This document shows positions 62,364 through 64,000 of a stretch of 64,000 bases of DNA, piece by piece. The notes under the pieces were generated by a model. The model worked only from the letters and a program-made list of their open reading frames with translations, did not search any database and was not told the origin of the DNA. Source of the DNA: Cellulophaga sp. L1A9 (GTDB lineage: Bacteria; Bacteroidota; Bacteroidia; Flavobacteriales; Flavobacteriaceae); the NCBI RefSeq assembly GCF_009797025.1, contig NZ_CP047027.1, positions 1,178,001 to 1,242,000 of the forward strand, in the 5' to 3' direction. The position numbers and the translations under genes are program-made. Numbering within the stretch: position 1 is the stretch's first letter; each line of letters begins with the position of its first letter.

Positions 62364-62392
62364 TTGAAAAGTCAATTTAATTTGTACTTTTG
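62364..62392 (+). promoter_or_regulatory. Promoter of the arginine operon
   Basis: TTG at 62364-62366, 18 bp, then TACTTTTG at 62385-62392, an exact TAnnTTTG. The leader-peptide ATG is at 62400, only 7 bp after the box, so the transcript begins at or just before the ATG. Confidence 0.8.
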
Positions 62393-62399
62393 AACTATA

Positions 62400-62483
62400 A
62401 TGAACAACAACAATTACATATTTACTACAGACAGGTCATCTTCACCTGTCCGTTCATTTACGCCTACACGTCGTCGCCCGTAA
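62400..62483 (+). CDS. Arginine leader peptide (attenuator)
   Basis: A 27-residue ORF, too short for most gene finders. It encodes five Arg residues, including Arg12 (AGG), Arg18 and a run Arg24-Arg25-Arg26 (CGT CGT CGC) directly before Pro and the TAA. It begins right at the transcript start from the promoter at 62364-62392 and is the only ORF before an acyltransferase and argG. This layout fits transcription or translation attenuation by arginine-charged tRNA: the ribosome would stall on the Arg codons when arginine is scarce. No homologue is known to me by name. Confidence 0.7.
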   Translation: MNNNNYIFTTDRSSSPVRSFTPTRRRP

Positions 62484-62564
62484 GGGTGCACTATAACTAT
62501 GGAAATAGGTGAGTCCATTTCCGCTAAGTCTCAAAACAACATTTCATTAATATTTTTACCCTTA
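62430..62564 (+). promoter_or_regulatory. Alternative RNA pairings in the arg leader
   Basis: GACAGGT (62430-62436) pairs with ACCTGTC (62444-62450). TCACCT (62442-62447) can instead pair with AGGTGA (62507-62512). GGAAAT (62501-62506) pairs with ATTTCC (62517-62522). TAAGGGT over the leader stop (62481-62487) pairs with ACCCTTA (62558-62564) just before the acyltransferase start. Several are mutually exclusive, as in an attenuator. No classic T-run terminator is seen. Confidence 0.45.
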
Positions 62565-62578
62565 AATCCTAATTGGCA

Positions 62579-63202
62579 ATGGAATTACTAATTGCTAACG
62601 AATCACATTTTAAGTATGCAGACATCATCTGTGATACTATCGCAGATTCTGCTAAAACTCGTGGAACTGGTATTGCTAAACGCACACCAGAATATATTCG
62701 TAAGAAACTTGAAAACGGAAATGCCGTAATAGCTTTAGATGGAACCACATTCGCTGGCTTCTGTTATATTGAAGTTTGGGGGCATGGAAAATATGTCGCT
62801 AATTCTGGGCTTATTGTACATCCTGATTACAGAGATAGAGGTTTAGCGAAGCAAATAAAACAAAGAATTTTTAAACTTTCTGGTGAGAAATTTCCTGATG
62901 CTAAAATATTTGGTATTACTACCGGATTAGCGGTAATGAAAATCAATTACGAGTTAGGATATAAACCGACTACATTCTCTGAACTTACAGATGATCCAGA
63001 GTTTTGGAAAGGATGCCAAACCTGTAAAAACTTTGATATTCTTACACGTACAGAACGTAAAATGTGCTTATGCACAGCGATGCTCTATGATCCTAAAGTA
63101 CAGTCCAAAAAGAAAGCTGTAGAAGAGAATGAAAAATTAAATACAAAAGCTTTTAAGCGATTAAAAAGTATAAAAGAATCCCTTTTCCTAAAAAAGAAAT
63201 AA
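62579..63202 (+). CDS. GNAT acyltransferase, probable first arginine-pathway enzyme
   Basis: 207 residues from the ATG at 62579; an in-frame TTG at 62573 is less likely. GNAT fold with the acetyl-CoA loop HPDYRDRGLAKQIK near 85-98. The C-terminal part carries a Cys-rich segment WKGCQTCKNF ... KMCLCTAMLYDP around 143-170 that is outside the standard GNAT core and might bind a metal. The place at the head of the operon, behind an Arg leader and 1 bp from argG, suggests it makes the N-acylated glutamate that starts arginine synthesis, by context. Not the classical ArgA. Confidence 0.85.
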   Translation: MELLIANESHFKYADIICDTIADSAKTRGTGIAKRTPEYIRKKLENGNAVIALDGTTFAGFCYIEVWGHGKYVANSGLIVHPDYRDRGLAKQIKQRIFKLSGEKFPDAKIFGITTGLAVMKINYELGYKPTTFSELTDDPEFWKGCQTCKNFDILTRTERKMCLCTAMLYDPKVQSKKKAVEENEKLNTKAFKRLKSIKESLFLKKK

Positions 63203-63203
63203 A

Positions 63204-64000
63204 ATGAAAAAATTGGTTTTAGCCTATAGCGGCGGATTAGACACATCATACTGTGCAAAACATTTATCAAAAGATGAAGGATTTGAAGTTCATGCCGTTA
63301 GTGTAAATACTGGTGGATTCTCAAAAGAAGAAATAAGTCAGATCGAAAAAAAAGCGCTAGAATTAGGGGCTACTTCATACAAATCTATTGATGCGGTACA
63401 AACATTTTATGATAAAGTAGTAAAGTACTTAATCTTTGGCAACGTATTAAAGAATAATACTTATCCCCTTTCTGTTAGTGCAGAACGTATTGTACAAGCT
63501 ATTGAAATTGTAAACTACGCTAAAAAGGTAGGAGCCAATTATATTGCTCACGGAAGTACTGGCGCAGGAAATGATCAAGTACGTTTTGATATGATTTTTC
63601 AGATTATCGCACCAGAAATAGAAATTATCACCCCTATTAGAGATAATAAATTATCTAGAGAAACCGAAATTGCATACCTAAAAGAAAACGGAATTGATTA
63701 CCCTTGGGAGAAAGCAAAATACTCTATCAATAGAGGACTTTGGGGAACATCTGTTGGTGGCGAGGAAACATTAACTTCTAACAAAGCATTACCAGACAGT
63801 GCTTATCCTAGTCAATTACAAGAAAAAGAACCTGCAGATGTTAAACTAAGCTTTGAAAAAGGAGAATTAGTGGCTGTTAATGGTGTTAAAGATAAACCTG
63901 TTGCAAATATAGAAAAGCTAGAAGCTATGGCATCTAAATATGCTATTGGTAGAGATATTCATGTGGGCGATACTATTATTGGCACAAAAGGTAGGGTTGG
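63204..64000 (+). CDS. argG: Argininosuccinate synthase, 3' end beyond window
   Basis: 265 codons are seen with no stop; the gene continues past the window. The N-terminal PP-loop AYSGGLDTSYCAK and the later HGSTGAGNDQVRF and INRGLWGTSVGG segments identify ArgG, which joins citrulline and aspartate with ATP. It follows the acyltransferase by 1 bp, in a typical flavobacterial arginine operon under the leader peptide at 62400-62483. It lacks only the C-terminal third or so. Confidence 0.96.
   Translation, partial: MKKLVLAYSGGLDTSYCAKHLSKDEGFEVHAVSVNTGGFSKEEISQIEKKALELGATSYKSIDAVQTFYDKVVKYLIFGNVLKNNTYPLSVSAERIVQAIEIVNYAKKVGANYIAHGSTGAGNDQVRFDMIFQIIAPEIEIITPIRDNKLSRETEIAYLKENGIDYPWEKAKYSINRGLWGTSVGGEETLTSNKALPDSAYPSQLQEKEPADVKLSFEKGELVAVNGVKDKPVANIEKLEAMASKYAIGRDIHVGDTIIGTKGRV

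Follow-up and report, generated by a model that had tools for sequence, protein, structure and literature searches.

An arginine-codon leader ORF and a conserved two-hairpin RNA module upstream of an arginine operon in Flavobacteriaceae

Arginine synthesis is usually taught as being under the control of ArgR. ArgR (PF01316) was found in none of 100 Flavobacteriaceae genomes, that of Cellulophaga sp. L1A9 included, whereas 9 of 14 controls, one of them a Bacteroides, have it. An arginine operon of L1A9 begins near the end of the window analysed here (the whole stretch of DNA, 64,000 nucleotides) and is preceded by a short ORF ending in a run of Arg codons, which raises the question of how expression of these genes could be matched to arginine supply. 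The features that bear on this question are:

62364..62392, plus strand: promoter, with TTG at 62364-62366, an 18-nt spacer and TACTTTTG at 62385-62392
62400..62483, plus strand: leader ORF of 27 codons, predicted to be near-leaderless, encoding MNNNNYIFTTDRSSSPVRSFTPTRRRP and a stop; read from the sequence and conserved in relatives
62430..62450, plus strand: hairpin A, GACAGGT / ACCTGTC, within the ORF; stems of other sequence lie at a similar place in relatives
62469-62477, plus strand: Arg run CGT CGT CGC, followed by Pro CCG at 62478-62480 and stop codon TAA at 62481-62483
62475..62488, plus strand: hairpin B, CGCCC-GTAA-GGGTG, whose loop holds the stop codon; part of model R1
62501..62522, plus strand: hairpin C, with stem GGAAAT/ATTTCC, a bulged A at 62507, GG/CC pairs and the pentaloop TGAGT
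62579..63202, plus strand: GNAT acyltransferase, the first gene of the operon (PF00583, E 6.4e-6)
63204..64000, plus strand: argG, extending past the window; its best NCBIfam matches are argininosuccinate synthase (E 3.6e-63), although the part inside the window is too short to reach the cut-off

An initial annotation of this DNA described a 27-residue ORF that ends in Arg-Arg-Arg-Pro-stop, holds five Arg codons and precedes an acyltransferase-argG operon. The sequence confirms this description: the Arg codons are AGG, CGT, CGT, CGT and CGC, the last three being consecutive and followed by CCG and TAA, and genes for arginine (and proline) synthesis follow. Likewise, the ATG does lie 7 nt downstream of a box of the TAnnTTTG consensus, TACTTTTG, and this box-to-ATG distance points to a near-leaderless start. 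Among the 11 ATG ORFs of the window with 8-45 codons and a start 4-10 nt after TAnnTTTG, the leader ORF is the only one containing RRR, and any such promoter-placed RRR ORF appeared in just 3 of 200 order-1 simulated windows.

The genes downstream are arranged in the order GNAT-argG-argC-proC-argD-proA-proB-argF'-argB-argE/dapE-argH, where the argD-like, argF'-like and argE/dapE-like genes score below their family cut-offs. The GNAT acyltransferase was matched in 198 of 299 family genomes, leaving 101 of the 299 without a match; it has no NCBIfam match at E 0.001 and could either catalyse the initial acylation in arginine synthesis or act as a regulator. The protein carries a CxxC...CxC stretch.

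To follow the leader through the family, we collected the DNA upstream of the same acyltransferase gene at 89 arg loci, own included, all from Flavobacteriaceae. They comprise the best 30 acyltransferase matches and 59 plus-strand matches among those listed, and are thus a non-random draw; other listed matches, chiefly on the minus strand, lie outside the set, and L191 was removed as a duplicate of L065. Comparable ORFs are present in other Flavobacteriaceae: a short ORF ending in Pro preceded by RR is present at 30 of the 30 closest loci (own included), and the ORF at the module described below ends in Arg-Pro-stop at 83 of 89. The conserved motif CGYCGY can be reached in frame from an ATG, GTG or TTG at 88 of 89 loci, and is absent from the remaining one (L119); five of the 89 lack the Pro-stop and keep the hairpins. 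A strict script, requiring TAnnTTT[GA], an ATG 4-10 nt further on, Arg within the last four residues and an end at the module, was passed by 43 of the 89 loci. Two of these 43 also have an upstream ORF of the kind described below, leaving 41 one-ORF leaders; 17 of the 89 loci fit neither the one-ORF nor the two-ORF script. In the 41 one-ORF leaders, the distance from box to ATG is 6-9 nt (4-10 nt being the selection rule), and TTG occurs at a spacer of 17-21 in 15 of 41, compared with 1 of 41 at control spacers of 27-31.

A second set of 80 loci, which overlaps the 89 in part, was drawn from Maribacter, Zobellia, Cellulophaga, Arenibacter, Muricauda and others; we take these five genera to belong to the Flavobacteriaceae. 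The loop of hairpin C is present at all 80, and a promoter box, an ATG or GTG and an RR near the end of the ORF at 68. By eye, the ORF is also present at the remaining 12 of 80, ten of which have a variant box (TACATTAG or TACTTTAG), one of these ten reading RGRRP; in the other two the Arg run is broken (RPRP). The middle of the leader peptide varies among relatives, and by eye little recurs along it beyond its tail and a loosely kept His/Tyr/Asn-Ile close to the N-terminus. This pair (nucleotides ACATA; 62415-62420 in the window) was seen by eye near residue 6-7 in many leaders, where it is explained neither by codon sensing nor by the hairpins.

The most conserved part of the locus, absent from the initial annotation, is an RNA module that spans the stop codon and the sequence just beyond it. 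Model R1 finds hairpins B and C before the acyltransferase gene at 89 of 89 loci, B normally with the stop codon of the ORF in its loop. The four inner pairs of B form in nearly all loci and the outermost in 65 of 89, with hardly any covariation. Roughly 12 variable nucleotides separate B from C, and in the 41 one-ORF leaders the distance from the stop codon to the stem of C is 16-20 nt, most often 17 (23 leaders), counting a 6-pair stem with one bulged base. Hairpin C shows compensatory changes in all six outer pairs, 97.8% of their cells being paired; its tip, GG-UGNGU-CC, is nearly invariant, and its bulge mostly ends in A. For hairpin A, which lies within the ORF, the signal is weak: compared with codon shuffles, z was below 0 in 35 of 41 leaders and below -1 in 17 of 41, with a mean of -1.05.

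A MAFFT alignment (A1) misaligned hairpin C across differing bulge lengths and gave a covariation term of -0.05. R1 was therefore built on A2, 41 single-A-bulge sequences chosen from the 89, after which all 89 were realigned (A4). In the R1 alignment of 89, 96.8% of cells are paired and both-side changes occur in 84 cells, compared with 22.4 in shuffles, and none of 500 shuffles reached the observed values for the whole B-C structure; the R1 structure was written after viewing the sequences and A4 was fitted to it, so that these figures lean towards the structure. In A2, aligned without reference to structure, C has both-side changes in 6 of 8 pairs and is 97.6% paired, although here too the structure had been drawn up with these sequences in view. 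A second small ORF beginning MEIGESISA (62499-62591) lies over hairpin C; we rejected it as a peptide because its start codon varies (ATG, TTG or none in frame, by eye) and the compensatory changes preserve pairing.

How far does the module extend? A scan of 395 genomes of the phylum with R1 gave a match in 21, of which 16 belong to the family, with one match each, and five are weak matches outside it (E 0.001-0.01), those in G568 and G329 being well separated from the acyltransferase gene. At least 20 family genomes had no R1 match, 19 of those listed belonging to genus g128. Among 49 further loci (47 from the family, mostly more diverged, and two from outside), the module was found in 31, all from the family and at E<1e-4, and two more had a weak match. 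Together, 120 of 136 scanned family arg loci carry the module (89 of 89 and 31 of 47), again in a non-random draw. Four weak extra R1 matches obtained with a lax cut-off were excluded, and the cut-off is not a clean one, since the strongest outside match (L142, 24.4 bits) scores about the same as the weakest counted family match (L167, 24.5 bits). The module was not found upstream of the first gene in five g128 relatives, nor in G568 (related at the level of order) or G329 (class). By eye, four g128 loci (L160, L172, L174 and L175) have another near-leaderless leader, MNKISLHITSLSRTNSPITSPEVRTLSL-stop or similar (MNKISLHITSLSRTN...SPEVR...). L179, from G329 and related only by class, has a GTG frame ending in RYLAPRRF-stop and a following hairpin upstream of the acyltransferase, possibly an independent Arg leader outside the family.

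No Rfam family was matched above its gathering score; the single hit, Fibro-purF, reached 11.6 bits (E 9.4) where 60 are required, and was rejected as a chance match. Nor does hairpin C seem to recur in the genome, where by eye none of four other AGGTGHGTCC sites has a matching stem.

The initial annotation called the locus an arginine attenuator leader peptide. A classical ribosome-mediated attenuator has a leader ORF with codons for the product of the pathway, an intrinsic terminator, mutually exclusive antiterminator and terminator structures, and transcripts that end early depending on the amino acid. A short leader ORF rich in product codons is what the arg leaders have. In contrast, searching all 89 with a loose rule, we found no conserved intrinsic terminator between the leader ORF and the first gene: the rule picked out 10 leaders, the hairpin concerned being B itself in four and lying elsewhere in six. 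The window's own arg leader has no terminator by this rule; B is followed by CACTATAACT, and a scan for terminator-like sites returned one site, namely hairpin A of the ORF, followed by a weak tail. Positive controls for the search came from the his and ilvD operons of L1A9, whose leaders have strong intrinsic terminators. The first (L124, about 2300-2140, minus strand) encodes MKNTTTHHHHFYTCFQAR-stop, 7 nt after TACTTTTA, and is followed by a terminator before hisG; it looks like a textbook attenuator with a near-leaderless start. The second (L125, about 1050-1180) encodes MLELKNNIYVIIILLKE-stop, 4 nt after TACATTTA, and then has a strong terminator. The arg leader shares with both the product-codon leader ORF and the near-leaderless start, and differs from them in having a conserved two-hairpin module in place of a conserved terminator.

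Pairing probabilities averaged over 87 leaders anchored on C revealed separate hairpins and no recurrent competing partner, whether or not a ribosome was placed on the Arg run; the scan covers a fixed distance from hairpin C, so that pairings at variable distance would escape it. Across 43 leaders there was also no sign of a long-range helix joining the beginning of the ORF to the sequence ahead of the first gene (mean z 0.02; z>2 in two). The arg leaders might nonetheless be classical attenuators with an intrinsic terminator that our rules missed, perhaps a weak hairpin B. The his and ilvD leaders show that this genome has such attenuators, and B followed by a U-rich stretch satisfies the loose rule in L005, L018, L095 and L108, but 85 of 89 leaders, including that of the window, lack this combination and no alternative pairing recurs; we regard this explanation as very improbable. 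Thus one half of the initial interpretation is likely to hold, that of an arginine-sensing leader peptide with conserved Arg codons, whereas the other, a classical attenuator, is not. With neither a conserved terminator nor a recurrent competing pairing found by these scans, factor-dependent termination or mRNA decay becomes the most likely remaining output.

If the module is the best conserved part, is the ORF needed at all? B-C could be a self-sufficient element, either an arginine riboswitch or a protein-binding pair of hairpins, with the RRRP end merely reflecting the motif CGYCGCCCG. The conservation of B-C fits such an element, as does the tip of C, which stays nearly constant while the stem co-varies, as in binding sites. 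Moreover, hairpin B takes in the final Arg codon and the greater part of the Pro codon, and before their last four codons the one-ORF leaders show no in-frame excess of Arg (7.9%, versus 7.7% and 7.9% in the shifted frames), two observations that weaken a purely codon-based reading. The Arg codons of the 43 leaders are chiefly CGC (96) and CGT (84), followed by AGA (10), AGG (5) and CGG (4), while those of the window genes are AGA (48%), CGT (24%) and CGC (9%).

A second type of leader helps to separate selection on codons from selection on structure. At 31 of 89 loci, a second near-leaderless ORF with at least three Arg (the script rule) lies upstream, separated from the B-C module by over 100 nt. 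These 31 upstream ORFs contain 23.2% Arg in frame, compared with 2.7% and 5.8% in the other frames (three or more Arg being the selection rule), and 138 of their 154 Arg codons are CGY, which makes up about one third of Arg codons in the window genes. The Arg codons inside the module motif are retained in both types. At position -4, the third Arg codon, which lies just before the module, Arg is kept in 38 of 41 one-ORF leaders and in 4 of 30 two-ORF leaders (L119, without the motif, is uncounted; Fisher p 4e-12, common descent ignored), so it is mostly lost where an upstream Arg ORF is present; since each type of leader probably corresponds to a clade, these counts are not independent. The -4 pattern and the in-frame Arg richness of the upstream ORFs favour the codon reading. 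They also argue, together with the frame that runs from a start codon into the motif at 88 of 89 loci, against a module that works by itself, an explanation we now consider unlikely.

The promoter of the upstream ORFs is read from the box, itself a selection rule, because TTG is not enriched before it (7 of 31 at spacers of 17-21, versus 5 of 31 at control spacers). In two-ORF leaders, z>2 in 10 of 31 (mean 1.8) hints at a helix in which the beginning of the upstream ORF pairs with the sequence ahead of the second one; such a helix might couple translation of the second ORF to that of the first. L070, L097, L098 and L110 are examples of this helix, and in some genomes its letters have changed and still pair. 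L154 and L166 (G003 and G238) have an Arg-rich upstream frame, RRCRLESRRPLR-stop, seemingly read from an ATT a few nucleotides past a promoter-like box, a possible near-leaderless AUU start.

Rather than the speed of decoding, the nascent peptide could be what matters, if it arrested the ribosome at Pro-stop in response to free arginine and the arrest controlled the module, in the manner of TnaC or SpeFL. In arrest peptides of this type, conserved residues along the peptide contact the tunnel. The Pro-stop end of 83 of 89 peptides and the His/Tyr/Asn-Ile pair of many N-termini (by eye, uncounted) are in keeping with arrest; against it, the middle of the peptide varies, the upstream ORFs end in RRR-stop, RRRF-stop or other ways, and the five loci without Pro-stop keep their hairpins. 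We give this explanation little credence.

It was at first attractive to suppose that arginine and proline are sensed together. The Arg run ends in Pro, the operon contains proC, proA and proB, and among 20 other operons (17 at module loci and three outgroups) proC is present in 17, proA in 7 and proB in 10. Pro makes up 12.4% of residues in 41 leaders, compared with 3.2% in the window genes. The frame control weakened this idea: leaving out the last four codons, Pro is at 9.9% in frame versus 5.5% and 5.3% in the other frames, where base composition predicts 8.1%, and the upstream ORFs have 7.2% with 6.9% expected. Proline might be sensed as well, but this part is weak because Pro in the ORFs hardly exceeds the expectation from base composition.

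Taken together, we lean towards an arginine sensor that works by ribosome pausing and acts through the new B-C module, with a probably factor-dependent output. Relatives share the Arg-ending ORF and the hairpin pair, hence arginine supply is probably gauged by the speed of the ribosome on the ORF. A ribosome would start on the near-leaderless AUG once the 5' end has left RNA polymerase. When arginyl-tRNA for CGY codons is plentiful, it would read the Arg run, reach the stop codon and leave, allowing B to fold beside C; when arginine is short, it would wait on the Arg run, cover the 5' arm of B and block its folding. Hairpin C, with its stem about 17 nt past the stop codon, would be free in both states and could be the docking site of a putative factor. 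The B-C module would be the output switch, the operon being turned down when B is folded, most likely by Rho-type factor-dependent termination or by mRNA decay rather than by an intrinsic terminator. The basis of this model is the sequence and its conservation, the covariation of C, the codon pattern, the lack of a conserved terminator by the rules used and the lack of ArgR in the sample; translation, the direction of the response, the mutual exclusion of ribosome and B, the factor and the kind of output are parts that we infer. The near-leaderless design that the his and ilvD leaders of L1A9 share counts for the model, and the five g128 relatives that have the first gene and no module match count against it.

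The closest known system in its working is orf34-speF of Salmonella. According to passages of PMC6386406, it too has a short ORF with consecutive Arg codons, the mRNA folds differently when ribosomes pause there, the effect depends on where the stop codon lies, and Rho and RNase G are named as the means, with no intrinsic terminator. It differs in controlling ornithine decarboxylase rather than arginine synthesis, and no B-C-type module is seen in those passages. The mgtCBR leader of Salmonella (PMC3641672, in part) resembles the two-ORF relatives in having two short ORFs in one leader, ahead of other genes.

The initial annotation's suggestion that such a leader would be new in the phylum goes too far, given that L1A9 itself has near-leaderless his and ilvD leaders with terminators and that the literature offers precedents. 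In passages of a 2021 study of Flavobacterium psychrophilum, from the same family (PMC9723704), leader-peptide attenuation is proposed for amino-acid operons, structured elements are placed before pheA, hisG, ftsY, acsA, alaS and rimP, and leaderless mRNAs are put at 5.5%; the main-text passages, to which the search was confined, contain no arg element. Likewise, parts of PMC7366714 (2020) note leader-peptide-like short ORFs in Bacteroides thetaiotaomicron, and a portion of PMC2864571 lists a Bacteroid-trp motif. The main text of an attenuator survey (PMC2965389) does not contain Bacteroid, Flavobacteri or arginine. Within titles and the beginnings of abstracts of the open full-text literature, subscription papers and supplements aside, we found no mention of an arginine leader peptide preceding arginine-synthesis genes in the Bacteroidota. 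What is new is the conserved module without a terminator and the two-ORF variant.

Looking forward, the one-ORF and two-ORF versions amount to a natural experiment in which the contributions of codon sensing and RNA structure can in part be told apart. Hairpin C, backed by covariation and bearing a near-invariant tip, could be used as bait for a putative RNA-binding regulator in Bacteroidota. ArgR was not found in 100 sampled genomes of the family, while 120 of the 136 scanned arg loci carry the module. We tentatively suggest, as a broader idea that we hold to be possible rather than probable, that throughout the family an RNA may replace ArgR: one or two near-leaderless Arg ORFs would sense the charging of tRNA-Arg, and hairpin C of a terminator-free module would bind a dedicated putative factor that ends transcription or triggers decay.
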